63,035 nucleotides of DNA, taken from contig SCQE01000010.1 in assembly GCA_004321915.1 (NCBI GenBank), positions 1 through 63,035 on the forward strand, given 5' to 3'. The DNA comes from Nitrospirota bacterium. GTDB taxonomy: Bacteria; Nitrospirota; Thermodesulfovibrionia; Thermodesulfovibrionales; Dissulfurispiraceae. Numbering within the stretch: position 1 is the stretch's first letter; the number at the start of each line of letters is the position of its first letter. A model generated the notes under the pieces. The model was not told the DNA's origin and searched no databases. It was given only the letters and a program-made list of their open reading frames with translations. The position numbers and the translations under genes were made by a program. Below are positions 26,054-50,515 of this stretch, piece after piece.

Positions 26054-26189
26054 CGATAATACTATCAGATGGCCCCCTGATTTTTCAAGAATCCGCAAAT
26101 TTTTGACTTGCAAAAAACTATTAAAGATATTAGCATTATAAGGTATAATATAACTCAACATTGAATCCAAGTTAATGGGAGGACTGCCC

Positions 26190-27779
26190 GTGAAAATATT
26201 CAGGAATTTCTTGTTCGTTTTTGTCGCTGTTATTTTGGGGCTTTTGCCGTCTTTTGCCATGGCCGAGGAAAACATCCTCGAACGCGGTATTGCCGAGTAC
26301 CGGGCCGAAAACTATGAAGAGGCCTTGGAAATGTTCCTGAAGGCCCGGCAGCTCTACCCTACTTCTTCGGCGCCTGCTTTTTTCTTGGGCCTCTCCTATA
26401 AGCAGGCAGGCAAATTCAATGAGGCTGTCAAATACTATAAAGAGGCTGTTACGCTTACGCCGCCTGTGCCTGACGCCTACATCGAACTTATCGAAGTGCT
26501 GATGAACCAGAACGAACTTAAAGAGGCCAAAGCATGGATCGTAAAGGCCGAGGAAGCAAAGATCAAGCCTCCAACGGTCGCCTTTCTTAAAGGGCTTGTT
26601 TTTATGAAGGAAGACAAAACCAAAGAGGCGATAGAGGCCTTTACGAACGCCAAGGATCTGGACAAAGGCTTGGCACAGGTTGCCGAGTTTCAGATAGCGA
26701 TGGCTTATGCTAAAGCGAACAAACTTGCGGATGCTAACAGGGCGTTAAAGGCGGTCATATCGGCAGACCCGAATACGGACATAGCAAAGTTCGCAAAGGA
26801 GTATGAAAAAAATATCGAAGCGACCCTCAAGGCATACAAGCCGTTCAAGTTTACAATCGGGGCCTCATACCAATACGACGACAATGTTATCGGAACACCG
26901 CTATACGGTCCTTCCAATGTTAAAACACCCAAAAAACAGGACTATGGTCTTTTGACTTCTTTTAGCGCGAGCTATAACTCTATGCCGTCAGGCCCGATGT
27001 TTTACAATGTTCAGTACAATTTAAACAGCACTTACTACAATCATTTTCATGCAAGCAATACGGTGGCGAACACTATTTCCCTTATACCCGGATACAACTT
27101 CAGCTTTGGCGGACTCACCGTGCCGTTAAGCTACAGCCATTCATGGCTTGGCAGGACCACGACAATCACAGGTGCGCCCGATGGAGAGATAAAGGCGATG
27201 AGCCCTTATCAGGAAACCTATTCTATAAAACCGGCTTTGAATTTTATGTTTTTGCCGGGCCATCTCGGTCAGGTTTCGGCCGGATATACGCATAAAGAAC
27301 TCTTCAGGAGAAACACCACCGCTGCCGAACCCCCGGACGCCGATGAGGACAGGAGCGGCCACTCTCTAAACTGGTCAGCCGGTTATCTCAAACCTTTTGC
27401 GGGCGGCAAGGGCATGGTCAATGTGAAGTATGAATTTACGAAGGACAATTTAAAAGGCGTAAACTGGATGTCCAAATCGGACAAACTCGGCGTTACGGCA
27501 TTAATCCCCTTAAAAGAGAAAATAGATCTGACCCTTTCTCACGACGTCACCTATCAGAAATACAGGAATGTGAATACGAACCTGCCTATAGGCGCTAACG
27601 CAGCCGGCAATATCCATAGGAAAGACAGGTTGTATAACACTTCGGCAAGCATACTCTGGGAAATCGTTAAAAACATCAACCTCAATATTCAATATGCGCG
27701 CACCTATTCTTATTCCAATCTCGAGGTGTATGAAAACCTTAAACACACATACACAATCGGCTTTGAATACAGGTTTTAG
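26190..27779 (+). CDS. TPR protein with C-terminal outer-membrane beta-barrel
   Basis: A 529-residue protein. GTG at 26190 is chosen as start (GGGAGGA upstream, then a signal peptide MKIFRNFLFVFVAVILG..FAMA). Residues ~28-215 are tetratricopeptide repeats (AEYRAENYEEALEMFLKARQLYP and following units). Residues ~220-529 are a beta-barrel with alternating aromatic strands (FTIGASYQYDDNVIG, GLLTSFSASYN) ending in YTIGFEYRF, the C-terminal aromatic signature for outer-membrane insertion. Related in design to TPR-barrel secretion or polysaccharide export proteins. It precedes the FecR-domain gene by 85 bases and may work with it (inference). Confidence 0.8.
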   Translation: MKIFRNFLFVFVAVILGLLPSFAMAEENILERGIAEYRAENYEEALEMFLKARQLYPTSSAPAFFLGLSYKQAGKFNEAVKYYKEAVTLTPPVPDAYIELIEVLMNQNELKEAKAWIVKAEEAKIKPPTVAFLKGLVFMKEDKTKEAIEAFTNAKDLDKGLAQVAEFQIAMAYAKANKLADANRALKAVISADPNTDIAKFAKEYEKNIEATLKAYKPFKFTIGASYQYDDNVIGTPLYGPSNVKTPKKQDYGLLTSFSASYNSMPSGPMFYNVQYNLNSTYYNHFHASNTVANTISLIPGYNFSFGGLTVPLSYSHSWLGRTTTITGAPDGEIKAMSPYQETYSIKPALNFMFLPGHLGQVSAGYTHKELFRRNTTAAEPPDADEDRSGHSLNWSAGYLKPFAGGKGMVNVKYEFTKDNLKGVNWMSKSDKLGVTALIPLKEKIDLTLSHDVTYQKYRNVNTNLPIGANAAGNIHRKDRLYNTSASILWEIVKNINLNIQYARTYSYSNLEVYENLKHTYTIGFEYRF

Positions 27780-27797
27780 CCGAATGTGAAAAGTACC

Positions 27798-27826
27798 TTG
27801 ACTATTTCCGCTCGAGGTAATAGGAT
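27798..27826 (+). promoter_or_regulatory. sigma-70 promoter before the FecR-domain gene
   Basis: TTGACT (27798-27803), 17-base spacer, TAGGAT (27821-27826), about 39 bases before the start; AGGAGGT ribosome site at 27850-27856. Confidence 0.6.
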
Positions 27827-27864
27827 GAAATCATGAGAGGCCGAGATATCAGGAGGTAAGCCAA

Positions 27865-30800
27865 ATGAGAGAATACGGACATAAGAGATCGTTTTTTGCG
27901 ATGCGCATGGTTTTTAGCGCAGTGCTTCTCGCAATATGCCTTGTCGTATTGCCGCAGAATGCTTGGAGCGCCGAGCAGGTAGGCAAAATAACGAATGTTG
28001 AAGGCAAGGTCGATATTTTGCGCGGAGGACAGCTCCCGGCTGTGGCCGTAAATCTCGATGACGCTATTTATGTAAAGGACGTTCTGAGGACCAAAAGCGG
28101 TGCAAAAGCCGAAATTACCTTTGACGACGGCAATGTTGTAAAGGTCGCTCCGAGCAGCAGGATAGACATAGAAGATTATGTTCCGCACGAAGGAAAGAAC
28201 AAGGCTGTTATCAAGATGCCTAGAGGCAAGGTCCAAGCCATAGTAAATAAGGACATAATTAAAAAACTCTCTCTCTCTTCCAAGGCTTCTGCTTTTGAAG
28301 TGCACACGCCAAACGCGGTTGCAGGCGTTAGAGGCACAGACTTTTTTACTATGCAGACTGTTGTTCAGGGGATAAACATAACGAATATCGTTGTAAAAGA
28401 CGGCATAGTGGAAACGCATAACCCGAAATTTCCTGATCAGGTCGTAAGATTAACTCCCGGAACAGCCACCTCGATTTTAGAAAACAAGCCGCCTGCTGCG
28501 CCGGTCAAAGTTCCTGAGCAGGGGATGAAGAATCTTGAAAAAGACACAACTTTAAAAGAAAAACCTAAACAGAAAACCGAAGCGCAGCCCGCTAAAGATA
28601 CTGCAAAGGCCCCTGAAGCAGGCAAGCCCGGAGACAAGCCTAAACCGGGCGGCCCAGCGCCTGCGCCCGGAACAGCAATGAGACCCGGCGGCCCAGCGCC
28701 TGCGCCCGGAACAGCAATGAGACCCGGCGGTCCTGCGCCTGCACCCGGAACAGCAATGGGACCGGGAGGCCCAGCGCCAGCACCCGGAATGATGGGACCC
28801 GGTGGTCCTATGTCCGGCCCGGCTGGTATGCCTCCGGTAGGTCCGATGGGAAGTCCAACCGGACCAATGGGCGTGCCGACAGGCCCTATTGGAGCGCCGA
28901 TGATGCCGGGAGCAATGGGACCGATGGCAGGGCCTACACCCGGAATGATGGGACCTGATCCTATGATGGGAGGAGCGCCCGGAATGCCGATGGCGCCGGG
29001 GATGCCCGGAATCCCGGGAATGATGCCGGGAGCAATGGGGCCGATGGCAGGGCCTACACCCGGAATGATGGGGCCTGATCCTATGATGGGAGGAGCGCCC
29101 GGAATGCCGATAGCGCCGGGGATGCCCGGAATCCCGGGAATGATGCCGGGAGCAATGGGACCGATGGCAGGGCCCGGAAGCATGGACTTTGGAGTGCCTG
29201 CGGGAATGGTCCCGGGAATGATGCCGGGAGCAATGGGACCGATGGCAGGCCTCGGGGGCATGGACTTTGGAATGCCTGCGGGGATGGCCCCGGGAATGAT
29301 GCCGGGAGCAATGGGGCCGATGGGCAGTCCAATGCCGGGGATGATGCCCGGTGCCATGATACCCGGAATGTATATGGATCCAATAATGACGATGATTCCC
29401 GGATTGATGCCGGGGATGATGCCCGGTACATATCCCCCAACAGTGGGGACATCATATCCGATAGGCGGCGCATATCCACCTATTATCACAACAATATTTA
29501 CCGACTACAATACCAGTGTAATTTACGGCACGACAACTACCAATTTCTACGGCAGCATGTCCAGTAACAGCAATTACGATTTTGTGACGGCCTCTGCATT
29601 TCCGATAAGCGGCACACTCAGCGGTTCGGCAACAACAATAACCACCGGCATAACCAATGAGCTTTCCGGCCCTATAAGCTTCACCATTTCTCCGTACAGC
29701 AATCCCACAGGAAAGAAACTCTGGGCCGCCGACATGACCGGAACTACCGACAGGGGCGGCGCTTTCGTAGGGTTTGTGGGCAGCACCGCCCCTGCGTCGC
29801 CGGGCAAAGGCGGTTATGTTGCATTCTATGCTGAGGGCGGCATGCTCGGTATTATAGAAGGGACCTTCACCGACTATCTCGATGCATCAGGGACTATAGT
29901 CAACGCCGGCGGTACAGGCAGAGTACATCTGATAGGCCCCGGCATCACTTTTTTGCCTACGGTAGCCGGCCTGCAGAGCGCCATGTCGTCGACAAGCAGG
30001 GTTACAACAGGCTCGGATTACGGTTTCAAGATCGGCGCGGCGAATGATTTCCTGATATTATTAGGCGATCCCACTAATTCGAGCAGCGTTTCATTTAAAG
30101 AATTTGAAACTATCCTTGGCACCTATGGTTCAACCGCAGGCATAAGGATGAGGTTTGAAACAGGCACCTTCAGTTTGACTGATTATGTTTCAGGCAGAAA
30201 CGGTGTTATAAATACGAGCGTTTATATGGGTGATAGAACCGCTACGAGATACAGTGTTGGGCTTGCAAGCATCAGCAACGATCCGGTATACGGTCTCCTG
30301 AGCGCAAACTACGACGCCACCAGTATCGAGTTTAACCTAGGCATGGGCTTCTACTCGTTGGGCCGCGAAGGAGTTCGCTTCAATGCCAAGTATAGCGGAG
30401 GCTCTTACAACTCAATTGAATTAGGCGGATTTCAGGGGTCGCCCATGAGCTTTGCAAACTCAGTCAGTGCGACTGCTTATTATAACGGAACGTCAGAGGG
30501 CACTTTGTCGGCCTTCATGGGAGGCACATCCCCGCTTTGGTACGGCCCTAATATGTCCGGCAGCGGTAACATTACCATAATTGGAACCACCACAGGTTTA
30601 ACCCCGGGGGTAGGGGCAATCCCCTCGACGAGAACGGGCCAGATTTGGAAGGCCGGCATTTCGAGTGCGGTAATTAACAGCGGCGCTTACGACGGTTATA
30701 TCAGCGGCATAACCCGATATAATGTTCCGGGCGGCATCACACCCGGTGTGGACGACTACGTAGAGGGATTGATAGCCGCCCTCTATATATCGCCCTACGG

Positions 30801-31935
30801 CGACGCCGGAATAATGACAGGCAGCTTCGGGGTGCCGGGCACAGTAAGCAAAGGGCAACTTTATCCGGATATCGCTATGTTCGAGGCCGACGGCCGGCTC
30901 AACACCGTTCCAATGGCAACTACCGGCAATTCGGCATCGATACTGACTTCGTCACTGATAAAGAGCGCGGATTTTAATTATCAGACGATGGGCGGCGGGT
31001 TCTGGGACCCTTCCTATAATGTGACCGGCTCGTTCACCTCATCATCGAGCGGCACGCACAGCATTAAATGGATATCGGACGGCGCCGGAGGCGCAGTCGG
31101 GAATATGGGAGTATGGAGGACCGATGATTATGGCTCCTATTCCAATCCCGGGGGATACAATTACGGCTGGGTAAGAGACCTGACCGGATGGAATACGGCT
31201 TCCGGCGGTTATGCTATAGGCGCCTTGATGGAAGGCGGTCCTTTTGGATATAAAAGTGCTGTTTCTTATACTGTGTCCGGCCCGGTTTATACCACAATAG
31301 CGACGGGAAACAGGCTTGACGCCCAATTTTACGGCTATTGGGCCGATTCAGGAACAAGGAGCGCTGTTCTGTCAACGCCGATGACGGCCATCATGACAGG
31401 CAATGTTGTCGGCACCTTCGATCCTGTTGCTTACACTTATCAGGCAGCCGTCTCCGGAGCATGGGTTGAGACCACGAAACTGTTGCAGATGGTATGCGGT
31501 GACTCGACATGCAGCGGTTTTGGCACGCCTAATCCCAATGTCGGCACGTTAAATATCCCGTCTTTTATAGTAGGCAAGGTAAATCTTGCAGGCTCAGGCA
31601 CGAATATGCCTACCGTCAACATGAATAATGTAGTGTTTCTTGCGCCTGCAGCCGGCTCAGCGCCAAAGATATGGGCTACAGCGGATGTAAATGGAACATA
31701 TTCTGCAAACCCCGTAGGCCAAACGGCAAATTTAAGCGGCGGCGGGATCAATGTTCAGTTTACGCCTCAGCAATGGACAAGCAATAAATGGCTTGCAACG
31801 GTTGACGGCTCTATACCCGCAAGTACAATGAACAATTCAAGTGCTTTGACCGTGAAAGGCGCGGCTGCGGGAACATATACAGGGGCGGGATCAGGATCAT
31901 TCAATGGCACAGCCGCGGGTACACTAAAGAAATAA
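27865..31935 (+). CDS. giant FecR-domain surface protein with Met/Gly/Pro-rich repeats
   Basis: A 1356-residue exported protein. Signal peptide ~1-36 (..NAWSA); FecR domain ~40-200 (VGKITNVEGKVDILRGGQ, DVLRTKSGAKAEITFDDGNVVKV, HTPNAVAGVRGTDF); Lys/Pro-rich linker; a ~265-residue low-complexity block (~262-528) made of PGGPAPAPG and PGMMGPDPMMGG-type units; then ~830 residues of Gly/Ser/Thr/Tyr-rich beta-strand repeats of unknown type. FecR domains sense or carry signals in the periplasm, but no FecI sigma factor or TonB receptor is adjacent, so classical iron signalling is unlikely. It sits between the TPR barrel and the OmpH/CHASE2 genes. Confidence 0.75.
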   Translation: MREYGHKRSFFAMRMVFSAVLLAICLVVLPQNAWSAEQVGKITNVEGKVDILRGGQLPAVAVNLDDAIYVKDVLRTKSGAKAEITFDDGNVVKVAPSSRIDIEDYVPHEGKNKAVIKMPRGKVQAIVNKDIIKKLSLSSKASAFEVHTPNAVAGVRGTDFFTMQTVVQGINITNIVVKDGIVETHNPKFPDQVVRLTPGTATSILENKPPAAPVKVPEQGMKNLEKDTTLKEKPKQKTEAQPAKDTAKAPEAGKPGDKPKPGGPAPAPGTAMRPGGPAPAPGTAMRPGGPAPAPGTAMGPGGPAPAPGMMGPGGPMSGPAGMPPVGPMGSPTGPMGVPTGPIGAPMMPGAMGPMAGPTPGMMGPDPMMGGAPGMPMAPGMPGIPGMMPGAMGPMAGPTPGMMGPDPMMGGAPGMPIAPGMPGIPGMMPGAMGPMAGPGSMDFGVPAGMVPGMMPGAMGPMAGLGGMDFGMPAGMAPGMMPGAMGPMGSPMPGMMPGAMIPGMYMDPIMTMIPGLMPGMMPGTYPPTVGTSYPIGGAYPPIITTIFTDYNTSVIYGTTTTNFYGSMSSNSNYDFVTASAFPISGTLSGSATTITTGITNELSGPISFTISPYSNPTGKKLWAADMTGTTDRGGAFVGFVGSTAPASPGKGGYVAFYAEGGMLGIIEGTFTDYLDASGTIVNAGGTGRVHLIGPGITFLPTVAGLQSAMSSTSRVTTGSDYGFKIGAANDFLILLGDPTNSSSVSFKEFETILGTYGSTAGIRMRFETGTFSLTDYVSGRNGVINTSVYMGDRTATRYSVGLASISNDPVYGLLSANYDATSIEFNLGMGFYSLGREGVRFNAKYSGGSYNSIELGGFQGSPMSFANSVSATAYYNGTSEGTLSAFMGGTSPLWYGPNMSGSGNITIIGTTTGLTPGVGAIPSTRTGQIWKAGISSAVINSGAYDGYISGITRYNVPGGITPGVDDYVEGLIAALYISPYGDAGIMTGSFGVPGTVSKGQLYPDIAMFEADGRLNTVPMATTGNSASILTSSLIKSADFNYQTMGGGFWDPSYNVTGSFTSSSSGTHSIKWISDGAGGAVGNMGVWRTDDYGSYSNPGGYNYGWVRDLTGWNTASGGYAIGALMEGGPFGYKSAVSYTVSGPVYTTIATGNRLDAQFYGYWADSGTRSAVLSTPMTAIMTGNVVGTFDPVAYTYQAAVSGAWVETTKLLQMVCGDSTCSGFGTPNPNVGTLNIPSFIVGKVNLAGSGTNMPTVNMNNVVFLAPAAGSAPKIWATADVNGTYSANPVGQTANLSGGGINVQFTPQQWTSNKWLATVDGSIPASTMNNSSALTVKGAAAGTYTGAGSGSFNGTAAGTLKK
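28661..29440 (+). repeat. Met/Gly/Pro-coding tandem repeats
   Basis: Short repeats encoding PGGPAPAPGTAM (three units from ~28648), then a 120-bp unit present twice (28900-29019, 29020-29139) with only a few substitutions, then degenerate MMPGAMGPMAG units to 29440. It is coding on the plus strand; the long open frames on the minus strand are mirror artefacts of the composition. Confidence 0.85.
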
Positions 31936-31963
31936 ACACCGGTAGATTTAAACCTTTTCTAAG

Positions 31964-31991
31964 GGCGGGATTTCGCAATCCCGCCTTTTTT
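31964..31991 (+). terminator. intrinsic terminator after the FecR-domain gene
   Basis: GGCGGGATT, loop TCGC, AATCCCGCC, then a run of T. Confidence 0.9.
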
Positions 31992-32032
31992 GTGGTAATA
32001 TTTTGAAAAATCAACCCGGAGGAATAAATATA

Positions 32033-32548
32033 ATGAGAAAGCTTTTTTATCCTGTTCTTTTAAGCGCGATAATATTCTTCTCGACTGCATCGGTTCAGGC
32101 CGAGATGCTGAAGATCGCGATATTCGACACGCAGAGGATCCTTGCGGAATCCAAGGTGGTGAAAAAGTACAGGCAGAAGCTTATGGAAACGACCGACGCT
32201 AAACGCAAGCTGTTTGCGGACAAGCAGGAGGCCATGAGACAGACCGCCGAGAAGCTCAGGACCGAAGGCGGAAAGATGACTTTCTACGAAAGGAAAAACC
32301 TCGAAGAAAAACTTGCATTGGAGGACAAAGAGCTCAGGCGGTTGCGTGAAGATCTCGATTATGAGATACAGAAGATGGACAAGGACCTTACGCAGCAGGC
32401 GCTGTTGGATATTGAAAAAATCATTCGTGAGATTGTGCGCAAAGAAGACTTTACCGTAATATTCGAGCGGAGCTCCGCAGGCATTGTGCATTTCAAAGAG
32501 TCGGTGGACCTGACACCAAGGATCATAAGCCTTTACGACAAGCAGTAA
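32033..32548 (+). CDS. OmpH/Skp-family periplasmic chaperone
   Basis: A 171-residue protein; start at ATG 32033 with GGAGGA upstream. Signal peptide (LFYPVLLSAIIFFSTASVQA), then KIAIFDTQRILAESKVVKKY, a long charged coiled coil, and a C-terminal DFTVIFERSSAGIVHFKESVDLTPRIISLYDKQ, the normal OmpH architecture. Skp-like chaperones form trimers that hold unfolded outer-membrane proteins in the periplasm. Its place after two surface-protein genes suggests a dedicated chaperone (inference). Confidence 0.85.
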   Translation: MRKLFYPVLLSAIIFFSTASVQAEMLKIAIFDTQRILAESKVVKKYRQKLMETTDAKRKLFADKQEAMRQTAEKLRTEGGKMTFYERKNLEEKLALEDKELRRLREDLDYEIQKMDKDLTQQALLDIEKIIREIVRKEDFTVIFERSSAGIVHFKESVDLTPRIISLYDKQ

Positions 32549-32876: not shown

Positions 32877-35800
32877 ATGCCGGAACAGGACAAACACAAA
32901 GGGACCCGTAGAGGCCTTATTCGCAAGGCCATGCAGGGGGTGTTTGTGGGCGCTGCCGCAGGCCTGCTGGCTGTTTCCGCCGGCTTTTTGGAAATCAGCG
33001 AACACCTTGAACTGATGGCGCTCGACTTGCGGTTTAAGTTAAGGCCCTCAATAGAGATGCTGTCTGACGTGGGCTACATAGAATTTGACGACTCATCGCT
33101 CGAACGTTTCGGGAAATGGCCGTGGTCGCGCTCCCGGCAGGTGGCGCTCGTCAATACTTTGGGGCTTTACGGCGCAAGGGCGGCAGGCTATGACGTTTTT
33201 TTTATCGAAAGAGAGAATACGGTTTTTCATTCCGGAGAGGTGCGGCAGTATTTCTCGGGACAAAGAGGTCCCGGAGCCGATTACCAAACCCTGCTTCAAG
33301 AGTCGTTCAGGGATTATGACAGAGAGTTCGAAAAGGGCCTGAGAAAGGCGGGGAACATATATCTGGCATACTTTTCAGAGGACCCCAAAACTTCCGAAAA
33401 AACGCTCGCCGGAATATTGAAAGAGACAAAGGAAAACATAAAGAGTTATCCGTCGGAAAAAAGAGAATCGGTCGGCGAACTCGAAAAAACTTTTTTGAAG
33501 GCCAACAAGACCGCGGAACAGAACGCTTACAAGATCGTCAAAATCGATGCGCCCCTGCCTGAATTCATACGGGCGGCAAAAGGCATAGGTTTTGCACAGC
33601 CCGGATACAACAAGGACGCCATAGTCAGGAACTATATTTTTTACAGATACTATGACGGCAAACTGCTTTACCCTATTACCATAAAAATATTGTCGGACAT
33701 CATGGATTTTAAAATTTCGGATATAGAGGCTGTGCCGGACCGGCATCTTATAATTAAAAACGCAAAAGATTACAAAACAGGACAAAGGACTGATCTCAAG
33801 ATACCCATCGATGACCACTTCCAGACGCTGCTGAACTGGGCAGGCCCTTTTAATAGGACCTTTCTACGGGTCCCTTTTGAATATATCAACTATCATTATT
33901 CCTACAATCTGGCCAAAGAGATAGCAAGAAAATCCATGTCTTCCAAGACCGATATAAACGAAAAGGCCTTTATCAGGGCCGCCGCCCGTATACGTACCCG
34001 TCTTGAAACAGAAGGCATTGCGATCGGCAGCGAAGCGGACAAGGTTGCCAAGGAAGTTGCAGGCGCTCAACTGATAAGCCTCGGGCTCGATAAAAACATG
34101 TCCGAAAAACAGATGACGGCCGTTCTCGGAAAGCATATGGAGGAGAAGCAGGCCCAGCGTATTTTCGATTCGGTTTTCACCGGACATAGCGCTTCAAAGG
34201 CGATAAAGAACAATCCGGAGTTGTCTCCACAGGAGTTTTTTGCAACCGGACAGTGGCGGGGAGACAGACAGCTGCGGGAAGAGGCCTTCAAGAACATCCG
34301 ATTTTTTGCGCTTGCAGGAAAGCTCGAAGAGATAAGGCCTTTTTATTTTCCGCCGCTCATCCAAGTAAAGAGAAACGATAAGGATATTATGCTGTCGCCG
34401 CTCGATCTCTACGGGAAAATATTCATGATAGGGCTTACAGGCACCCAAACCATCGATCTGAAACCGATGCCGTTCGATGAGTCGGCGCCTATGGTGGCAT
34501 ATCACGTCAATGCGCTTAACATGGTCCTTACTAAAAATTTTCTTTCATTTCCTCCGCAATACTTTAAATATGCCGCGACTTTAGGTTTGGCTGTGGTCAT
34601 AGGCCTGCTGGGAGGGGTTTTCAGCATACCTGTATTTTCGGGCATAACGGCGGCGATTACCGCCTGTTATCTTTTTGTGACCTATCATATCTGGGCGTCC
34701 AAAGGCGTCTGGCTCGAATGGGCCGTACCGCTAACGGCCATTTTGCTCGCCTTTCTTGCGAGCGCGGTGATACAGCTTATCAGGGAATTCCGTGAAAAGA
34801 AAAAGGTGAGAGGTATTTTTTCGACGATGGTTTCTCCCGCAGTGCTCAAGGTGATGGAAGAGAACCCCGATAAATTCTCGCTTACAGGGGAGCGTAAGCC
34901 TGCCACTATGCTGTTTTCAAAAATAGACGGGATAGGCGATGTGATAAAGACCATCGCGCCGGACGAGCTTACCCAGCTGTTGAGTATATATCTCACACCA
35001 AACAGCGAAATTATCATGGAGTATGACGGATACATAGACAAGTATGAAGGCCATGTTATAATGGCCGATTTCGGCGTGCCTCTCGACGATCCGGACAATC
35101 CTTGGAAATGCGCCTTTTCGACGGTTGAGCAGAGACTCGATATAGAGGCGTTCAAATATTTCGTAAATGTGAGATACGGCCTGAATGTAGGCGTTTCGAT
35201 GGGTTTCAACTACGGATACGTTTCTGCCGGCAACATGGGCTCCGAACGAAAATTCCAGTATACGGTCATGGGAGACCCGGTCAACGTGTCCGCCCGCTTT
35301 ATGGCCGCCAATTATATTTATAATTCCCCCTACTCCATAACCGGCGAAGAGTCGGTGGCGGCCCTCGAAGATTTTGTTCATCTGCGCCTGCTGGACAAGC
35401 TTTTGCTGAAAGGCAAAACCAGACCTACCGAGATCTCGGACATTTTAGGCTGGAAATCGGACGCTTATTTAAAGATGCGGGGCAAAAGCCCTGTCCCTGA
35501 GTTTTTGCGCACTGTATGGGCCAAATGCCCCCCGGAAAAAATTTTCGGGTACCATGCCTTGTGGGAGGCCCGGCAAAAGCGCTTAAACAGCGGGCTTGCA
35601 AAGGACATAGCTAAATTTTTCGAGGACTCTCTCCCCGCTGCCACAGACATGATGACCGCCGAATGGAAGGGATATCTGCTTGCCTGCGTAAAGCGCATCG
35701 GGAATATCGAGCTTAATGCAAAGATATTGTTGGGCCACACTGCGGAGCGCCGCCCCGTATCCGGCAGCGTAGAGGTCCTCGGCCAATGGCATGAAAGGAT

Positions 35801-36377
35801 TGCCGATATATCTGGAAAGGCCGCCGATGCCCTTAAAAAAGGGACGGACAGCGGGGACAACCTCGCCGGTCTGGTCCGCGAGTGCGGGATAGTGCAGGCC
35901 CGGATAGGGCTGTTCATGAACAGGCTTGGCCTCGATGCTGCAGGGGCGCAGGAAGAAAGGGTTTTAGAGGTGTTCGGCCGCATTAAGGCATTTATACCTT
36001 CAGTCTCTTCTATTCAAAACAGCGATGAGGCCTTCGGAAAAATCGAAACCGAACTGAACGGGTTCCGCAAAAGCTATTCCGCGTCCGCCGACAGCTTCTT
36101 CAATGCCGTTAAAACGAGAAAAGAGGAGTATCATGAGCTTATGGCCGTTATCGGGGCCCCGGATGAGGAGACGCTGAAGGCAAGCGCGTTTTTTGATAAG
36201 GGGTTAAGGCTGTATTGGGAACGGAGATGGGACCCTGCACTGGAAGAATTCAAAAAAGCGGCAACGGCAGGCGCGGACGGAGGCCCTGCCCGATCTTTTA
36301 TAGAAAGGACCGAGACCTATAAAAATTCGCCTCCCGGAGACAAATGGCAGGGAGAATTCGTGCAGACAAAGAAATGA
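32877..36377 (+). CDS. CHASE2 class III cyclase homologue lacking metal-binding Asp (C2-like)
   Basis: A 1166-residue membrane protein: one N-terminal membrane helix (~20-42), a large extracytoplasmic CHASE2-type domain (~46-560; starts IEFDDSSLERFGKWPWSRSR), three membrane helices (~562-640), a class III cyclase domain (~670-840), and a helical/TPR-like tail. The two metal-binding Asp positions are Lys682 (LFSKIDGIG) and His726 (KYEGHVIMAD). The transition-state pair is intact: Asn803 and Arg807 (GDPVNVSARF). The conserved Arg before the GxNxG turn is Ser774. On its own it should be catalytically dead; it resembles the C2 half of mammalian adenylyl cyclase. Its stop overlaps the next gene by ATGA. 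No Shine-Dalgarno is obvious. Confidence 0.85.
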   Translation: MPEQDKHKGTRRGLIRKAMQGVFVGAAAGLLAVSAGFLEISEHLELMALDLRFKLRPSIEMLSDVGYIEFDDSSLERFGKWPWSRSRQVALVNTLGLYGARAAGYDVFFIERENTVFHSGEVRQYFSGQRGPGADYQTLLQESFRDYDREFEKGLRKAGNIYLAYFSEDPKTSEKTLAGILKETKENIKSYPSEKRESVGELEKTFLKANKTAEQNAYKIVKIDAPLPEFIRAAKGIGFAQPGYNKDAIVRNYIFYRYYDGKLLYPITIKILSDIMDFKISDIEAVPDRHLIIKNAKDYKTGQRTDLKIPIDDHFQTLLNWAGPFNRTFLRVPFEYINYHYSYNLAKEIARKSMSSKTDINEKAFIRAAARIRTRLETEGIAIGSEADKVAKEVAGAQLISLGLDKNMSEKQMTAVLGKHMEEKQAQRIFDSVFTGHSASKAIKNNPELSPQEFFATGQWRGDRQLREEAFKNIRFFALAGKLEEIRPFYFPPLIQVKRNDKDIMLSPLDLYGKIFMIGLTGTQTIDLKPMPFDESAPMVAYHVNALNMVLTKNFLSFPPQYFKYAATLGLAVVIGLLGGVFSIPVFSGITAAITACYLFVTYHIWASKGVWLEWAVPLTAILLAFLASAVIQLIREFREKKKVRGIFSTMVSPAVLKVMEENPDKFSLTGERKPATMLFSKIDGIGDVIKTIAPDELTQLLSIYLTPNSEIIMEYDGYIDKYEGHVIMADFGVPLDDPDNPWKCAFSTVEQRLDIEAFKYFVNVRYGLNVGVSMGFNYGYVSAGNMGSERKFQYTVMGDPVNVSARFMAANYIYNSPYSITGEESVAALEDFVHLRLLDKLLLKGKTRPTEISDILGWKSDAYLKMRGKSPVPEFLRTVWAKCPPEKIFGYHALWEARQKRLNSGLAKDIAKFFEDSLPAATDMMTAEWKGYLLACVKRIGNIELNAKILLGHTAERRPVSGSVEVLGQWHERIADISGKAADALKKGTDSGDNLAGLVRECGIVQARIGLFMNRLGLDAAGAQEERVLEVFGRIKAFIPSVSSIQNSDEAFGKIETELNGFRKSYSASADSFFNAVKTRKEEYHELMAVIGAPDEETLKASAFFDKGLRLYWERRWDPALEEFKKAATAGADGGPARSFIERTETYKNSPPGDKWQGEFVQTKK

Positions 36378-39300
36378 TAAAGAATATCGAACGGAAAGCT
36401 GCTGTTTTTTTTAAAGTGCATCTGAGAACAGGACTGGTTATAGGCTGCGCATTGTCGGTCCTGCTGTCGCTGACGATTTATCTCAGGGCCTTTGAGGCGC
36501 TCGAGTTCAATCTTTTGAACAAGGCCTTCTTGAAGAAAAACGCGCCCGCCCAAAATCAGGAGATCGTAACGCTCGATATTGACGATCCATCGTTGGCCTA
36601 TGTAGGCAGGTGGCCGTGGTCTTGGAATATACATGCCATGACGCTGGACTTTCTCTCGATGCACGGGGCCCGCAGCACGGTTTTGGTGGACATGGATTTT
36701 TCGAGAGAGGAGCCGGAGCGTCTAAGCAACGATTCCGCCGTACAGCTGAGGAAATCGCTGCAGGCCTCCGCAGGGAAGCGCGGTCCGGCAGCCTCTTTAA
36801 TGCCTGATGCCGGAATGAACTTTTACAAAAGCGTCGAAAAAAGCGGCAATGCCGTTTTTTCGTACGCCCTTAAACAACCGCTCCCCGGCGCTTCAGCGGC
36901 TGAGGTGAAGGAGGCCGCAACACAGAAAGAGAAATTGTTTCTTCCGGACAAGGTTGCCGCGATAGAATTTCTCAAGAAGCAATCCGGGATTAAAGGCGCG
37001 CCCAAGGAAATTTCGGCCGCAATCGACATGGACCCTCCGGTGATCAGGATAATGCGGTCTGCGAAGAAAACCGGCTTTAACGCTATCGACCTGGACCCCG
37101 ACGGCTTTGCAAGAAGATATCCGCTGTTCGCGGAATATCAGGGGACGGTCTATCCTTCGGTAGCGCTTAATGTCGCGACGGACCTTTTAAATGCGGAGCG
37201 GACGGTTTTCGGCAAAAGGCATATAGAACTGGGGGGCAAAACCAAGGTCCCTGTGGACAGCGAAGGCCGGATGCTTATAAATTGGGCGGGCGCATACGCC
37301 GACTCGTTTACTCACGTGCCTTTCAACCTCCTCTCCTCCTTTATCGCTCTTCAGGCGGCAAAAGAAGAGGCTTCAAAACACTCCCTTCAGGACATGCCGG
37401 ACCCCATGGCGCTGCAGGAGATCATACTTAACAGGCTTTCAGCGCTTCACATGCTGCCTGACGAGCAGTGCAAATATATCTCGACCGTTGTTTTTGTTTC
37501 GACGCTTATCGAATTTTATCTCCGGAATACGCCGAACACAATCGAAGAAGTATTGGATTCCCTCGGCGTCGACGCCAAAGACGAGCAATGGCTGGCCCTC
37601 GGCAAACAGATTCAGGTGAACAACTTTCTTGTGGGGGCCTACAAAAAGTCCAAGAAGGTACTTCCTTTCGGCGAACTGCTCGAAAAGTCGCGCGCAGGCA
37701 AAATAAGCAAAAACATAGAAGGGCAGCTTAAAGACGCTTATGCGCAGGCGGTCTTTTATCTCGAAAACGGAAATATCGAGAAGGTAAGGCCGCTTTTTTT
37801 CGACGGCCCTAAAAAACTTACGCTCGGCAAAAGGGTAATAAGCGTAAGTCCGGCATTTTTCAAGAACAAGACTGTGTTTTACGGGCTTACGGCGACCGGG
37901 CTTACGGCACAGCACGCAACGCCTTTCCTCGAACGGCATCCCATGCTCGACGTTGTGCCTAATGTGGTTAACACCATTGTTACCGGCAGCTTCATCTCGG
38001 AGGCGCCTCCTTGGGCCAAATATGCGATGAGCGCTTTTTATCTCTTCGGTGTTCTTTTTCTTGCGCTCGTTCTGTCGCCCTTTAAAGGTCTTTTGTTTGC
38101 AAGTCTTGCGGCGGTTTTTCATTGTTCCCTTTCATGGTCTTTATTTATAAATCAGGGGTATCTGCTGCCTGTGGTCCCGCCCCTCTCGGCAGTTGTCGTC
38201 TCATACGGCGCGGCCCTGTTTTACCGCTATCTGCAGGAGCAGAAAGAAAAAAGAAAGGTGAGGGGCATGTTCTCGACCATGGTCTCTCCCGAGGTTTTGA
38301 GGATGATGGAAGAAAACCCTGCGGCATTCAGGCTTGCCGGCGAGCAGCGCGAGGCCACGATGTTTTCATCCGACGTTTCCGGCTTCACCACAATTTCCGA
38401 GGGCGTTACCGCGCGGGAACTGGCAAACATACTTAATATCTATCTTACGCCGATGAGCAATATCATAATGTCCTATAACGGCTATATAGACAAATACGAA
38501 GGCGATGCTATAAAGGCCGAGTTCGGGGTGCCGCTTTACGATCCGGACCACAGCTGGAAGGCCTGTTTCTCCGCCCTTTACCAGCAGGAAGAGCTCAAGG
38601 TCATACAGAGAATGATCTTTCTGAAATACGGCGTCAGCATAACCGCAAGGATGGGTGTAAATACGGGCATCGTGACTGCGGGGAATATGGGATCGGAAAA
38701 ACGCATGCAGTATACGGTCATGGGCGATGCGGTGACCATCGCCGAAGAACTGGAACCTGCCAACAAGCTGTTCGAGACATGGATTGCCATCGGACCTGCC
38801 ACGCATGCGCAAGCCGGGGAGTTCATAGATACACGCTATTTGAACAATCTTATTATGGGCCATGCGCACCAATCTCTGCCCGTATACGAGTTGACCGGCT
38901 GGAACAAGGAAAAATATATCGAATACTGGAGCGGGAAGCCTGTTCCGGAGCTCTATCTCGAAGCCTTCAAGAAAATGATTCCCGAAAAAGTGATAGCCTA
39001 CGACGATTTTTTTGCTTCCAAACAGCTGCCAGATTCAAAGATGCTTAACGACATCAAAGCCCTGTTTGCGGGGCTCCGGCCCCGGGCCGTTGAATATATG
39101 ACCGCGAACAACATCCTGAGCGTTCTCTTCGTCAGGCAGGAACTCGAAGGTCTGTCCGCATCTATCAGGAAGAATGAAAATTTGTATTCCGGCATTGCGC
39201 TGCCCGGCCTTTACGCAAACGATATCTCCATGCTGAAAGAAAAAAGCTCTGCTGCAAGCGAGGAGTGGGGCCGTGTGCTGTTGGGGTGGAGGGCGCAACT

Positions 39301-39853
39301 CAGGGAATGTGCGGGATTGCATTTTGTCCTGAAAGAAAAAATATCCAAGGACGAGGCGGACCGCTACTACGGCACTATCGATATTCTTGAAAAAAGCGTC
39401 GAATGCATAAATAAGCGGATAGTCTTTCCAAAGCCTGAAGATGAAATCGCGATAAAGATGGCGGACCATCTTAAAGAGCTTGTCGGCGACAAGGACGCCT
39501 CTTTGCTTTCACATAAAACCTCAGAGCTTTCCGAAACAGGCCGGCGACTCGAAAAAGAGATACATGAAAAGCTCACCGCTTTTGCGGAAGCGCTGAGAAC
39601 ACGCGCTGACGAGTACCACGAATTCCTGTCGGACTTCTGCGTTGTTTCGGACAGGCAGAAAGAAGCTCCATCTCTATATGCGCAAGGGCACAAGCATTAT
39701 CTGAAGAGGGAATGGAACGAAGCTAGGGACCTATTCAAAAAGGTGCTTGCTGTTCTGCCGGATGACGGGCCTTCCGGGAAAATGCTCGAAAAAATAGAGC
39801 AGCTCGAAAAGGCCGCGCTGCCCCGAGATTGGGACGGCGCATGGGAAGAATAA
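36374..39853 (+). CDS. CHASE2 class III cyclase lacking transition-state Asn/Arg (C1-like)
   Basis: A 1159-residue paralogue of the upstream gene with the same order: membrane helix (~18-38), CHASE2-type sensor (VTLDIDDPSLAYVGRWPWSW), three membrane helices (~545-625), cyclase domain (~655-825), helical/TPR-like tail ending DWDGAWEE. Metal-binding Asp667 (SSDVSGFTTIS) and Asp711 (KYEGDAIKAEFG) are intact, as is Arg759 (TARMGVNTG). The Asn/Arg transition-state pair is replaced by Thr788 and Glu792 (GDAVTIAEELE). This mirrors the C1 half of mammalian adenylyl cyclase, which also has Thr at the Asn position. Start at 36374 (ATGA overlap) fits translational coupling. Predicted to form an active heterodimer with the upstream product; the choice of ATP over GTP is not certain. 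Confidence 0.85.
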   Translation: MIKNIERKAAVFFKVHLRTGLVIGCALSVLLSLTIYLRAFEALEFNLLNKAFLKKNAPAQNQEIVTLDIDDPSLAYVGRWPWSWNIHAMTLDFLSMHGARSTVLVDMDFSREEPERLSNDSAVQLRKSLQASAGKRGPAASLMPDAGMNFYKSVEKSGNAVFSYALKQPLPGASAAEVKEAATQKEKLFLPDKVAAIEFLKKQSGIKGAPKEISAAIDMDPPVIRIMRSAKKTGFNAIDLDPDGFARRYPLFAEYQGTVYPSVALNVATDLLNAERTVFGKRHIELGGKTKVPVDSEGRMLINWAGAYADSFTHVPFNLLSSFIALQAAKEEASKHSLQDMPDPMALQEIILNRLSALHMLPDEQCKYISTVVFVSTLIEFYLRNTPNTIEEVLDSLGVDAKDEQWLALGKQIQVNNFLVGAYKKSKKVLPFGELLEKSRAGKISKNIEGQLKDAYAQAVFYLENGNIEKVRPLFFDGPKKLTLGKRVISVSPAFFKNKTVFYGLTATGLTAQHATPFLERHPMLDVVPNVVNTIVTGSFISEAPPWAKYAMSAFYLFGVLFLALVLSPFKGLLFASLAAVFHCSLSWSLFINQGYLLPVVPPLSAVVVSYGAALFYRYLQEQKEKRKVRGMFSTMVSPEVLRMMEENPAAFRLAGEQREATMFSSDVSGFTTISEGVTARELANILNIYLTPMSNIIMSYNGYIDKYEGDAIKAEFGVPLYDPDHSWKACFSALYQQEELKVIQRMIFLKYGVSITARMGVNTGIVTAGNMGSEKRMQYTVMGDAVTIAEELEPANKLFETWIAIGPATHAQAGEFIDTRYLNNLIMGHAHQSLPVYELTGWNKEKYIEYWSGKPVPELYLEAFKKMIPEKVIAYDDFFASKQLPDSKMLNDIKALFAGLRPRAVEYMTANNILSVLFVRQELEGLSASIRKNENLYSGIALPGLYANDISMLKEKSSAASEEWGRVLLGWRAQLRECAGLHFVLKEKISKDEADRYYGTIDILEKSVECINKRIVFPKPEDEIAIKMADHLKELVGDKDASLLSHKTSELSETGRRLEKEIHEKLTAFAEALRTRADEYHEFLSDFCVVSDRQKEAPSLYAQGHKHYLKREWNEARDLFKKVLAVLPDDGPSGKMLEKIEQLEKAALPRDWDGAWEE

Positions 39854-39857
39854 AAGT

Positions 39858-41600
39858 TTAAGTATCTGCCAGCGTATTTTCTACAACTTGGTCCAACGTT
39901 ATGATGCCTTTTTTGGCTTTGTCAATCGCCTCCTGCCGCAGGGTCATCATTCCGCTTGCAATGGCACAGCGACGCAGCTCTTCGGTGGTCGCCTCTTTGA
40001 TCAGGAGCTGGCGGAATTCTTTGTTGACCAGCAGCACTTCATATATGCCTGTCCGGCCTTTTTCGCCGCTTCCGTCGCATGCGTCGCAGCCTTTGCCCCT
40101 GTAAAGGGTTGTGCCGGCCTTTATATCGCCTTTTGACAGGGCTTCGTCGTCTGCGGTCGCCTCGTAAGATTCCTTGCATTTGGAGCAGATCCTCCGGGCG
40201 AGCCTCTGCGCGCATACGAGGACTATCGCGTCTGCTATAAGATACGGCTCGATGCCCATTTCAACAAGACGGGTGATGGTCCCGACCGCATCGTTCGTAT
40301 GCAGCGTGGAAAAGACCATATGGCCGGTAAGCGATGCCTCAACCGCCGACTTTGCGGTTTCGAGGTCTCTTATTTCACCAATCAGTATTATGTCCGGGTC
40401 GTGGCGCATAAAGGCCTTAAGCGCTTTTGCGAAGGTGTAACCGGTGGCCGGGTTAACACTGCTCTGTATTATCTGTCCTCCGAGCGTTGTTTCGACAGGG
40501 TCTTCAGCTGTACAGATCTTCATGTCCGGCGTGTCGAGCGTTTTCAGCGCTGCAAAGAGACCGGTCGATTTGCCGCTTCCGGTGGGGCCCACATGAAGCA
40601 TGATGCCGTAAGGCGTTTGTATTGCTTCTTTGTAAAGCTTCATACAATGGTCGTTAAAGCCCAGCATGTCCAAGGTAAGCACATTGCCCGACTTGTCGAG
40701 AAGCCTCATTACTATGTCCTCGCCGAACGGTGTGGGAACGGTCGATACGCGCAAGTCAAGGAGGTATGTGGGATTGTATTTCGTGAAGTCTATCCTGCCG
40801 TCCTGAGGCACGCGCTTTTCGTCTATTCTCAAATCGGCCATTATCTTGAACCTTGTGATGATGGCGTCCTGCGCATATTTGGGCACGCGCATGACCTCTT
40901 CGAGATTGCCGTCGATCCTGTATCTGACCCTGAGATAGTCTATGGCCGGCTCGAGGTGTATGTCGCTGGTCCTCTTTTTGACCGCTTCTTCTACGATCCT
41001 GCTGGCGAGCATTACGATGGGCGCGCTGTCTTCGGAAGCCTCTTCCGCTCCGACATCGGCAACTTGGACCGCGGGTTTAAAGCTTTCCGCCACCTGATCG
41101 AGTATGCTGCTCATACCGACCGCTTTCTTTTCCTCTTTGGGGATCGCAAAGAACTTTTCCACCGCTGCAAAAAGCATCTTGGCTGCGGTCATTACGACAT
41201 TGGTCTCTTTTATTCTGTACCGTGCGTCCCTGTACAGCCTCACGACTTCATCGAGCGCCATAAAATCGCGCGGTTCGACCATGGCGACCGTCAGCACCTC
41301 GCCCTCGTAGCTTAGCGGGAGCACCTTATAGTTTTTCGCATAGGCTGGCTTGATATGCTTTAAAAGTTCGGACGAGAGCGGTGTTGCAGAAATATCGACG
41401 AACGGATAGCCCAAGAACTCGGCCTTTACCACTGCGATCTTTTCTTCTGCCATGCCCGATTCGAGCAGGAGCATTTCGAGGTTCTTCTTTTCTTTAGAGA
41501 CCCTGAGCGTAAGCTCCTGCAGTTTCTCTTTTGTAAGAATGCCCTGCTCTATTAAGAGTTCTTCAAAGCTTTTTCCTGAGGTTTTTCTTACAGGTGGCAT
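39858..41600 (-). CDS. pilB: PilB/GspE-type secretion or pilus assembly ATPase
   Basis: A 580-residue hexameric ATPase of type IV pilus or type II secretion systems. N-terminal MshEN/T2SSE-N region (~8-150; FEELLIEQGILTKEKL), then the ATPase core with Walker A GPTGSGKST, Asp box, Walker B ILIGEIRDLETA, His box STLHTNDAVG, and a tetracysteine zinc motif (CSKC..CDACDGSG). The terminal part ITLDQVVENTLAD is canonical. No pilC, pilT or pilin genes are nearby. The ATG overlaps the TAA of the upstream GAF gene by one base, so expression is coupled to that sensor. Confidence 0.9.
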   Translation of the reverse strand: MPPVRKTSGKSFEELLIEQGILTKEKLQELTLRVSKEKKNLEMLLLESGMAEEKIAVVKAEFLGYPFVDISATPLSSELLKHIKPAYAKNYKVLPLSYEGEVLTVAMVEPRDFMALDEVVRLYRDARYRIKETNVVMTAAKMLFAAVEKFFAIPKEEKKAVGMSSILDQVAESFKPAVQVADVGAEEASEDSAPIVMLASRIVEEAVKKRTSDIHLEPAIDYLRVRYRIDGNLEEVMRVPKYAQDAIITRFKIMADLRIDEKRVPQDGRIDFTKYNPTYLLDLRVSTVPTPFGEDIVMRLLDKSGNVLTLDMLGFNDHCMKLYKEAIQTPYGIMLHVGPTGSGKSTGLFAALKTLDTPDMKICTAEDPVETTLGGQIIQSSVNPATGYTFAKALKAFMRHDPDIILIGEIRDLETAKSAVEASLTGHMVFSTLHTNDAVGTITRLVEMGIEPYLIADAIVLVCAQRLARRICSKCKESYEATADDEALSKGDIKAGTTLYRGKGCDACDGSGEKGRTGIYEVLLVNKEFRQLLIKEATTEELRRCAIASGMMTLRQEAIDKAKKGIITLDQVVENTLADT

Positions 41601-42463
41601 TATATCCTCGAAAAGATTAGAATCAGTTTTCGGGTTATACCCTTATCGTCAAGGTATGGAATGACCTTGATTTCCAGTATCTCGAGCTGCGCGATCTTTT
41701 TAAAACCGTGTTCGAACACATCGTTTATCTTTTCTTCGAGCTGCGTTCCCTGAAAGGACGGGAAAAGTTCGTAGAAGTTTTCGCCCACCATCATGTCAAC
41801 GGTATAGCGCATGCCGCTCATCACTTCGAGGAACCTGTTTGCGGATATTATCTGCCTCTTCGAGTTCAGGATGCATATGCCTTCGTCTATGTCGTCCATG
41901 ATATAGCCCCTGAGCAGACGCTCTTCGTCCGCAGTCTGGTAGAGCAGGGCGTTGTTGACGGCTATGCCTATCAGGATTGCGAGCTGCTGCATGATCTCAA
42001 CGTCCTTCTTTGTAAACCCCCCCGGCTTGTTCAATGCCTGAAAGACCCCGATGGTCGGGCCGTCCGTTTTGAACGGGATCGGGATGACCAGCACGCTCTG
42101 AGTTCTGTATCCGCTTTTCATGTCCCAGCTTTTGTCAAAGGCGAGTTCCGGATCGGCCGCTTTGAGTTCCGCGTCATCGTAAGCGTCTTTGATGTTCAGA
42201 TAGTTGGCTGTTTCGGCGGAATATCCGGCAAGGCTCGATTTTTTAATCGGGACCCTTATCTCTACGAGGTTTTCTGCCTGAAGGACTTTGGAGTACATCT
42301 CGTAATTTTCCCTGTCGAGGATATAAAGGGTACAGCGGTCTGCTTTTAGTATTGTCCGGACCTGTTCGACCACAGAAGTCAGTATCTCGTCGATGTCCAG
42401 AGACGTAAGTATCGTCTCTAAAATAGTAAAGAAATTGTCTATGCTTTGCGTGAGTTCTTTCAA
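41600..42463 (-). CDS. GAF-PAS sensor protein coupled to pilB
   Basis: A 287-residue cytoplasmic protein. Residues ~20-165 form a GAF domain (DEILTSVVEQVRTILKADRCTLYILDRE, then ETANYLNIKDAYDDAEL, SVLVIPI), followed by a PAS-like domain (~175-287; DIDEGICILNSKRQIISANRFLEVMSG). No output domain is present, so it probably acts by protein contact. The start is TTG at 42461-42463 with GAGG upstream. It overlaps pilB by one base. A role as a ligand-responsive regulator of the ATPase is inference. Confidence 0.8.
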   Translation of the reverse strand: MKELTQSIDNFFTILETILTSLDIDEILTSVVEQVRTILKADRCTLYILDRENYEMYSKVLQAENLVEIRVPIKKSSLAGYSAETANYLNIKDAYDDAELKAADPELAFDKSWDMKSGYRTQSVLVIPIPFKTDGPTIGVFQALNKPGGFTKKDVEIMQQLAILIGIAVNNALLYQTADEERLLRGYIMDDIDEGICILNSKRQIISANRFLEVMSGMRYTVDMMVGENFYELFPSFQGTQLEEKINDVFEHGFKKIAQLEILEIKVIPYLDDKGITRKLILIFSRI

Positions 42464-48322: not shown

Positions 48323-48604
48323 GCCCATGCCACTCTGCAATTCATAGGCCTGTCTGGTGTTACCTTTTTACCCACAATGCTACACTATGTAGCGGAAAGG
48401 AGTTTCTGTTGTAATGCAAGAAGTTGCGACCAGAAAAGCACGCGGGGGAAATTGCTTTTAATAAATTAACCTTTTAATTCAATGCGATTTGCGGGTTAAA
48501 AAATATTTTGTTCCGGATATCGGTCTATTGATTTCCAATTTTTGTTCTGTCAGAAACAGCCCGATGCCTACGGGCACGGTATTTGCAAAATCTTTACACC
48601 GTAT

Positions 48605-50515
48605 ATGTTACTTGAAGACACAATAAACTTTTTAAAAGAGATCCCGCCGTTTCAGTTTCTCGAGCCTGCGGCGCTTAAGTCTCTTGCAGGTAAGATGTCG
48701 CTCGAGTTTTTTCCGCAAAACACCATAATCCTCAAGCAGGACGGGCCTCCGAGCGAGACCCTTCTTGTGATCAAAAAAGGCGGGGTCAAGGTATTCATCC
48801 GGTCCGGCGACGGGGAGGAAGTTTTAACGGATTATAGGGGCGAAGGCGACCTTATCGGATATCTCTCACTTTTCAGCGGCGACAAATCGAGGGCGAATGT
48901 AGCGACAGTCGAAGACACCATCTGTTATGTGATAAGCAAAGAAACGATACAGGCGCTCTACGACTCCGAGCCTATAATCAGGGAATTCTTCCATAAATCG
49001 TTCGTCAACAAGTATGTGGACAAGACCTTCAAAGAGATGCACAGCAAGACGCTCATGATAGGCGGCGGCACCGACACCCTGATGTTTACCACAACGGTCG
49101 GAGAACTGGCCACAAAAGGCGTCGCAACGGTTTCGAAGGACGTTTCCATACAAGAGGCCGCAGGCATAATGTCGACAAACAAGATCAGCAGCATAGTCCT
49201 CGTAGACGACAACGCTGTGCCGGCCGGCATAGTCACGGACAGGGACCTGAGGGACAAGGTTGTTGCAAAAGGCCGCGACACGAACGAAAAGGCGAGCAAT
49301 ATAATGAGCCCCTCTTTGATAAAGGCCGAGGCAAGGGAATACTGCTTCGAGGCGTTGCTTAAAATGCTCCGGTACAACATCCACCACCTGCTAGTGGTCG
49401 ACGACGGCAAACTCAAAGGCATAATAACCAACCACGATTTGATGATGCTGCAGGGCAAATCGCCGCTCTCCTTTGCAAAAGACATAGAAAGCCAGTTCAC
49501 CATCGAGGGGCTGATACCGGTCTCCCTTAAAGTCAATACAGTGGTGAACCTGCTCCTGAAAGAAGGGGTAAAGGCAAGCAACATATCGAAGATAATCTCT
49601 GAGCTTAACGACAGGGTCGTCAGAAAGATCATCGAAATGGCGGAAAAGAAGTTCGGCCGGCCGCCGCTCCCCTATTGCTGGATAGTGTTCGGAAGCGAAG
49701 GCAGGAAAGAGCAGACCTTCAAGACAGACCAAGACAACGCGATCATTTTTGACAATCCTTCATCAGCCGGGGAAAAAGAAAAGGCAAAAGAGTATTTCCG
49801 CGCCTTTGCGGAGTTCATTAGGGACGGGCTTATAAAATGCGGTTTTCCTCCATGTCCAGCCGACAACATGGCGAGCAATCCCGAATGGTGCCAGCCGCTT
49901 CAGGTATGGAAGGGATATTTCGGCGATTGGATTTCGAGGCCTACTCCCGAGGCCGTATTGAAATCCCTTATATTCTTCGATTTCAGGCCGCTGCACGGCG
50001 ACTTCAACCTTGCAGAAGACCTGAGAACGCACCTTATAAAAATTTTGAAAGACCAGAATGTATTTATGGCGAAGATGGCCTCCGTCATAACCAAGAACAG
50101 GCCGCCGCTCGGTTTCTTCAAGACCTTTATAGTAGAAAAGAGCGGGGAGCATAAAGACGAAGTCAATTTAAAGATAAACGGCACAGGGCCCCTCGTGGAC
50201 GTTGTAAGGTTCATGGCGTTGGAGGCGGGCATTCCCGAGACCTCTACCCTCGAAAGGATAGAGAAGCTGAAGGACATACACCCTACGGTCAGGGACTTGG
50301 GCGAGGAACTCGCGAACGGGTTCGAATTCATTACGCTTCTCAGGATCCACCATCAGGTAGAGAGCATAGAGAAGTCAGGATCGCCAGACAACTTCCTGAA
50401 CCCCAACAAGCTGAGCAATCTCGAAAAGAAGACGCTCAAGGAATCTTTTCAGATCATCTCGAAGGCTCAGGACGCGATTGCGGAGCAGTACGGTCCGGGG
50501 ATGGTTGGCGGATAA
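48605..50515 (+). CDS. cNMP-binding/CBS/DUF294 nucleotidyltransferase-like protein
   Basis: A 636-residue cytoplasmic protein: cyclic-nucleotide-binding domain (~5-130), paired CBS domains (~155-285; VATVSKDVSIQEAAGIMSTNKIS, GIVTDRDLRDKVV, GIITNHDLMM), DUF294 nucleotidyltransferase-like domain (~340-480) with FGSEGRKEQTFKTDQDNA (the GS..DxD pattern), and a C-terminal helical DUF294-C domain. It is related to GlnD-like regulators, often found beside acetate symporters. In the cNMP domain the Glu that usually contacts ribose is Tyr (IGYLSLF), while Arg is kept (KSRANVAT), so cAMP binding is doubtful. Start at 48605 gives the domain-consistent N-terminus; a TTG 21 codons upstream is possible. 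Confidence 0.85.
   Translation: MLLEDTINFLKEIPPFQFLEPAALKSLAGKMSLEFFPQNTIILKQDGPPSETLLVIKKGGVKVFIRSGDGEEVLTDYRGEGDLIGYLSLFSGDKSRANVATVEDTICYVISKETIQALYDSEPIIREFFHKSFVNKYVDKTFKEMHSKTLMIGGGTDTLMFTTTVGELATKGVATVSKDVSIQEAAGIMSTNKISSIVLVDDNAVPAGIVTDRDLRDKVVAKGRDTNEKASNIMSPSLIKAEAREYCFEALLKMLRYNIHHLLVVDDGKLKGIITNHDLMMLQGKSPLSFAKDIESQFTIEGLIPVSLKVNTVVNLLLKEGVKASNISKIISELNDRVVRKIIEMAEKKFGRPPLPYCWIVFGSEGRKEQTFKTDQDNAIIFDNPSSAGEKEKAKEYFRAFAEFIRDGLIKCGFPPCPADNMASNPEWCQPLQVWKGYFGDWISRPTPEAVLKSLIFFDFRPLHGDFNLAEDLRTHLIKILKDQNVFMAKMASVITKNRPPLGFFKTFIVEKSGEHKDEVNLKINGTGPLVDVVRFMALEAGIPETSTLERIEKLKDIHPTVRDLGEELANGFEFITLLRIHHQVESIEKSGSPDNFLNPNKLSNLEKKTLKESFQIISKAQDAIAEQYGPGMVGG

Follow-up and report, generated by a model that had tools for sequence, protein, structure and literature searches.

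Genes A and B, two overlapping genes of a Nitrospirota bacterium, are predicted to encode an obligate membrane heterodimer of class III cyclase domains that has a single composite ATP site, the second site being dead, a reading to which we assign a probability of roughly 0.86. The genes are located in a stretch of 63,035 nucleotides (contig SCQE01000010.1), referred to below as the window (Table 1). In the class III active site, as known from guanylate and adenylate cyclases, the metal-binding Asp pair and the triphosphate Arg are supplied by one chain, and Asn, the transition-state Arg and the triphosphate Lys by the opposite chain (PMC2576301); A has retained the second set and lost the first, and the reverse applies to B. 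The residues named in the preliminary description (Lys682, His726, Asn803 and Arg807 of A; Asp667, Asp711, Arg759, Thr788 and Glu792 of B) all proved to be correctly numbered, and alignment to Pseudomonas CyaB places the metal-Asp and Asn/Arg positions. In addition, A is devoid of the triphosphate Arg (Ser774) and B of the triphosphate Lys (Gly829), which A keeps as Lys845, and the split is thus complete on six positions rather than on the four named earlier, the triphosphate Arg being the weakest of the six, since this column holds Gly in 22 of the 31 background cyclases. Neither protein carries both metal Asp and the Asn/Arg residues on one chain, as a canonical homodimer does, and the complementary losses leave one complete composite site, as in the C1/C2 type. 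Exact motif matches, together with two PDB alignments made independently, rule out an alignment error at the key columns; only in the Lys845/Gly829 loop of B is the alignment less certain.

Table 1. Features of the gene pair and its upstream neighbours in the window.
Feature	Position	Strand	Basis or remark
TPR protein, FecR-domain protein and OmpH/Skp-like protein, upstream of pair	26175..32548	+	conserved beside the pair in several genomes
Gene A	32877..36377	+	1166 aa; N-terminal TM, CHASE2, three-TM block, C2-like class III cyclase domain, ~310-aa helical C-terminal extension
A cyclase domain	34887..35432	+	residues 671-852
A Lys682, metal-Asp 1 position (lost)	34920..34922	+	alignment to Pseudomonas CyaB, orthologue comparison
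A Lys722, adenine-binding Lys (kept 20/20)	35040..35042	+	orthologue comparison
A His726, metal-Asp 2 position (lost)	35052..35054	+	alignment to Pseudomonas CyaB, orthologue comparison
A Ser774, triphosphate-Arg position, AC5 Arg484 equivalent (lost)	35196..35198	+	role from PMC2576301
A Thr796, second base-binding residue, class IIIb type (kept 20/20)	35262..35264	+	
A Asn803 and Arg807, ribose and transition-state residues (kept 20/20)	35283..35297	+	
A Lys845, triphosphate Lys (kept 20/20)	35409..35411	+	
ATGA overlap, A stop/B start	36374..36377	+	putative translational coupling
Gene B	36374..39853	+	1159 aa; same architecture as A, C1-like class III cyclase domain
B cyclase domain	38339..38881	+	residues 656-836
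B Asp667, metal-Asp 1 (kept 19/19)	38372..38374	+	alignment to Pseudomonas CyaB
B Asp711, metal-Asp 2 (kept 19/19)	38504..38506	+	alignment to Pseudomonas CyaB
B Arg759, triphosphate Arg (kept 19/19)	38648..38650	+	
B Thr788 and Glu792, Asn and Arg positions (lost)	38735..38749	+	
B Gly829, triphosphate-Lys position (lost)	38858..38860	+	loop alignment less sure

The two open reading frames, their ATGA overlap and the common architecture claimed at the outset were all recovered, as were the CHASE2 and Guanylate_cyc domains. PF00211 (class III cyclase) matches at 33.8 bits in A and 44.7 bits in B against a curated Pfam cut-off of 21.9 bits, while the CHASE2 scores of 103.3 and 116.3 bits, respectively, also exceed the Pfam cut-off, and CHASE2 precedes the TM segments (pattern by hydropathy) and the cyclase domain in both proteins. 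A second possible start of gene B is the in-frame ATG at 36344, upstream of the ATG at 36374. At ~1160 aa, as against ~700 aa for the CHASE2 cyclase typical of the phylum, the full-length architecture was common to A and B alone among the searched genomes, and the Pfam scores of both lie below those of the other cyclases encoded in the same genome. NCBIfam returned no name for the pair, and Rfam no match within the window.

A search of 176 genomes of the source organism's order (Nitrospirota) identified A in 20 genomes belonging to two families, the pair being absent from the other families, and a phylum-wide sample of 396 genomes yielded no further full-length relative outside the order. Scanning contigs with patterns derived from A gave matches in Nitrospirota only, the nearest relatives by gene A being Nitrospirae MAGs and Candidatus Magnetomicrobium. 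Complementarity was observed in all 20 A and all 19 B sequences, the twentieth B being missing where a contig (genome G095) ends just past A. The Lys, Thr, Asn, Arg and Lys contributed by A are invariant in 20/20 sequences and the Asp, Asp and Arg contributed by B in 19/19. The lost positions, in turn, vary: the first metal Asp of A is replaced by Lys, Met, Leu, Ala or Ser and the second by His, Ala, Asn or Val, while the Asn position of B is occupied by Thr, Ala, His, Arg or Glu and its transition-state Arg position by Glu (18/19) or Lys (1/19). The composite site accordingly has eight invariant positions and the other site six positions that are all lost and variable (Fisher p=0.0003 with kinship ignored, a value that is only a guide since the sequences are related); for the same reason the 20 genomes do not amount to 20 independent tests. 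The preliminary description had named homologous pairs with non-complementary substitutions as the observation that would speak against it; these were looked for in the 20 genomes and no exception was found.

Other cyclases of the phylum served as controls, the count leaving out a few weak PF00211 matches in G092 and other genomes. Both Asp and the Arg are kept in 31/31 of those from the phylum and in 17/17 of those from the same genomes as the pair, and Asn is kept in 47 of the 48, with Ser in the remaining one. Set against these 48 cyclases, the split seen in 20/20 A and 19/19 B sequences is not attributable to chance, and degeneration by chance as a common event in the phylum was ruled out on the same grounds.

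Phylogenetic analysis of 69 proteins places the A sequences in one clade and the B sequences in another, the two clades being sisters (support 100 each); the canonical CHASE2 cyclases branch outside A+B, and a long-branch warning applies to the outgroup. One duplication followed by complementary loss would be the simplest reading. Pairwise distances among A and among B sequences correlate over 19 genomes (mirror-tree r=0.93; 0 of 5000 permutations), as expected of genes that are inherited together, and the stop of A and start of B are spaced by -1 or +4 bases in most linked pairs. No case of B without A was encountered among genomes with intact contigs. Between the window and its sister genome, dN/dS is 0.086 for the full gene A and 0.072 for the full gene B, and falls to 0.016 and 0.019 in the respective cyclase domains, the lowest values of any region, which indicates that constraint is strongest in the two degenerate domains. 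The latter values, together with the occurrence of the pair in 20 genomes, rule out an assembly artefact or pseudogenes. In the sister genome (L055, MYbin3), gene B has an in-frame TAA at codon 514, which lies between the CHASE2 domain and the TM helices and reads CAC (His) in the window; the two base changes reflect an error of the draft assembly or else a broken gene.

Two genomes represent natural tests of the arrangement. In G092, A lies on a contig of 76 kb (at 41-44 kb) and B on one of 127 kb (at 108-112 kb); since these contigs differ and each gene lies far from the contig ends, the two are not adjacent, and the unlinked A and B are still complementary. G092 (6 Mb, second family) also holds an unusually large number of class III cyclase matches (19), with closely spaced pairs on C73 and C27/C59/C64. 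Two cyclases, L124 (G093:C87) and L110 (G092:C59), have Glu/Gly at the base-binding positions, indicative of guanylate-type or altered specificity, and one of them has Ser for the catalytic Asn. In G016, a MAG that is 97% complete and may hide further cyclases, PF00211 matches nothing besides A and B and no class I cyclase was found, while eight cNMP-binding proteins or domains are present. The search there covered classes I and III; if cAMP is made by an enzyme of either class in this organism, it is the pair that makes it.

The likeness of the two domains to the halves of eukaryotic tandem cyclases follows the same division. The PDB sequence matches of A among these enzymes are the C2 halves of AC5 and soluble AC, and those of B are C1 of AC5, AC8, AC9 and soluble AC, together with the soluble guanylyl cyclase alpha chain. 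Predicted structures of both proteins show the cyclase fold, though model confidence is low in parts: the B model aligns with CyaB (3r5g) at Z 18.8 (189 aligned residues, rmsd 3.6) and with bacterial and eukaryotic cyclases at Z 16-19, while a Foldseek search with the A model recovered class III cyclases, 8buz_A being the best match (E 1.8e-5). Both full-length models are of poor confidence (pLDDT 65.5 for A and 70.1 for B) and unfit for active-site geometry.

The heterodimer proposed here would pair A and B through their CHASE2, TM and cyclase domains, with the cyclase domains arranged head-to-tail. In the complete site, Asp667 and Asp711 of B would hold the two metals, Arg759 of B and Lys845 of A would bind the triphosphate, and A would provide Lys722 and Thr796 for the adenine, Asn803 for the ribose and Arg807 for the transition state. 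The other site, formed by Lys682, His726 and Ser774 of A and Thr788, Glu792 and Gly829 of B, would be without catalysis and serve a structural or regulatory role. Neither homodimer should work, as AA would be without both metal Asp and BB without Asn and Arg. Adenylate-type base residues (Lys with Asp, Thr or Ser) are present in A as Lys722 and Thr796 in 20/20 sequences, and on the basis of this Lys/Thr pair the product is probably cAMP rather than cGMP. It would be made in response to a signal at the paired periplasmic CHASE2 domains and would then be read by cNMP-binding proteins. The dead site may still hold a nucleotide or other ligand, since B keeps the base-binding Lys (19/19) and Thr (18/19) on its own side; forskolin binds the degenerate site of the mammalian enzymes (PMC8815786). 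The obligate heterodimer put forward in the preliminary description is supported, as a prediction with which one duplication, parallel divergence, strong purifying selection on both cyclase domains, putative translational coupling in most pairs and the situation in G016 all fit.

It is conceivable that both proteins are pseudocyclases and that the pair constitutes a membrane signalling scaffold which binds a nucleotide or a partner but makes no cyclic nucleotide. Each domain is indeed degenerate when taken alone, and the comparatively low Pfam scores would agree with such a role, yet a scaffold offers no reason for eight residues of one site to be invariant and six of the other to be lost, the cyclase domains display the lowest dN/dS, and G016 would be left without a further cyclase of class I or III to feed its cNMP-binding proteins. 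We therefore regard this explanation as improbable.

Still less probable is a B homodimer that is active alone at a reduced rate, with A as an inhibitory or tuning subunit. Loss of the Asn is tolerated by some class III cyclases, and B retains both metal Asp, the triphosphate Arg and the base-binding Lys and Thr; in B, however, the Asn and the transition-state Arg are both lost, the latter with a charge reversal to Glu in 18 of 19 sequences, while the Asn, Arg, Lys and Thr of A are invariant, which would be needless in a non-catalytic tuner, and B never occurs without A among genomes with intact contigs. That both A and B have some other cyclase of the cell as partner, and not one another, appears the most doubtful of the three proposals: two further class III cyclases in the window's genome, and more in others, could act as partners, but the unusual full-length architecture is shared by A and B only in the searched genomes, the A and B trees are parallel, and no other class III partner was found in G016.

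The TPR, FecR and OmpH/Skp genes upstream recur beside the pair in G000, G008, G016 and G032, and in G001 the FecR and OmpH/Skp genes are seen before the contig ends; their products may deliver a periplasmic signal to the pair. The FecR-domain protein of the window (27865-31935, 1356 aa) contains a Pro/Gly/Met-rich repetitive stretch, and FecR proteins beside the pair in relatives reach 2222 aa. A PilB/GspE-type ATPase and a GAF/PAS protein (39858-42463, minus strand) face the pair and adjoin it in G001, G016 and G024 also. Some 9 kb downstream (48542-50515) is encoded a protein with cNMP-binding, CBS and DUF294 nucleotidyltransferase domains, a possible cyclic-nucleotide reader.

Class III cyclases of bacteria are described as homodimers that have two equal sites, and the C1/C2 split is traced to a gene duplicated and fused in an early eukaryote (PMC9552081). 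A targeted literature search of partial coverage revealed no natural bacterial heterodimeric class III cyclase, in keeping with the earlier remark that no characterised bacterial pair of this kind was known; given this coverage, the novelty of a natural, unfused heterodimeric class III cyclase in bacteria is probable rather than proven. We lean, by a modest degree, towards viewing the pair as an unfused natural bacterial counterpart of C1/C2, which would have arisen by duplication of a CHASE2 cyclase and complementary loss, the dead site having been retained as a regulatory pocket through which two different periplasmic sensors are coupled. Bacteria would then have arrived independently, before fusion or without it, at a division of labour otherwise on record for the cyclases of animals and other eukaryotes. 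To annotate A and B as one adenylate cyclase each would be wrong, as only the pair would count.

Among known systems, the homodimers Rv1625c/Cya of Mycobacterium tuberculosis and the canonical bacterial CHASE2 adenylate cyclases (such as S. meliloti CyaD1, CyaD2 and CyaK) share the class III fold with A and B, and the latter group also the CHASE2 sensor, the phylum's own members being the closest outgroup to the pair; these enzymes differ in having two equal sites, both Asp and the Asn/Arg residues on each chain and a length of ~700 aa. Soluble guanylyl cyclase alpha/beta likewise consists of two separate homologous subunits with a heterodimeric catalytic unit (for A and B as read from sequence), but is soluble, heme-regulated, GTP-specific and eukaryotic. 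The chytrid NeoR/RGC proteins are two separate membrane sensor-cyclases that are functional only together (PMC8815786), a joint function that is predicted for A and B; unlike the pair, RGC1 and RGC2 are fungal light sensors which keep all catalytic residues, the need for a heterodimer lying elsewhere. Mammalian AC1-9 have one domain with two Asp and the triphosphate Arg and another with Asn, Arg and the triphosphate Lys, and so, as predicted for A/B, possess one catalytic and one degenerate site, derived from a duplicated homodimeric ancestor. They are, however, one fused chain with two six-TM blocks, whereas A and B are encoded by two separate, putatively translationally coupled bacterial genes, each product having one N-terminal TM, CHASE2 and three TM segments, together with class IIIb-type Lys/Thr base residues and C-terminal helical extensions. 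The pair represents a tractable system in which to ask what purpose a retained degenerate cyclase site serves and how one cyclase integrates two different sensor inputs.
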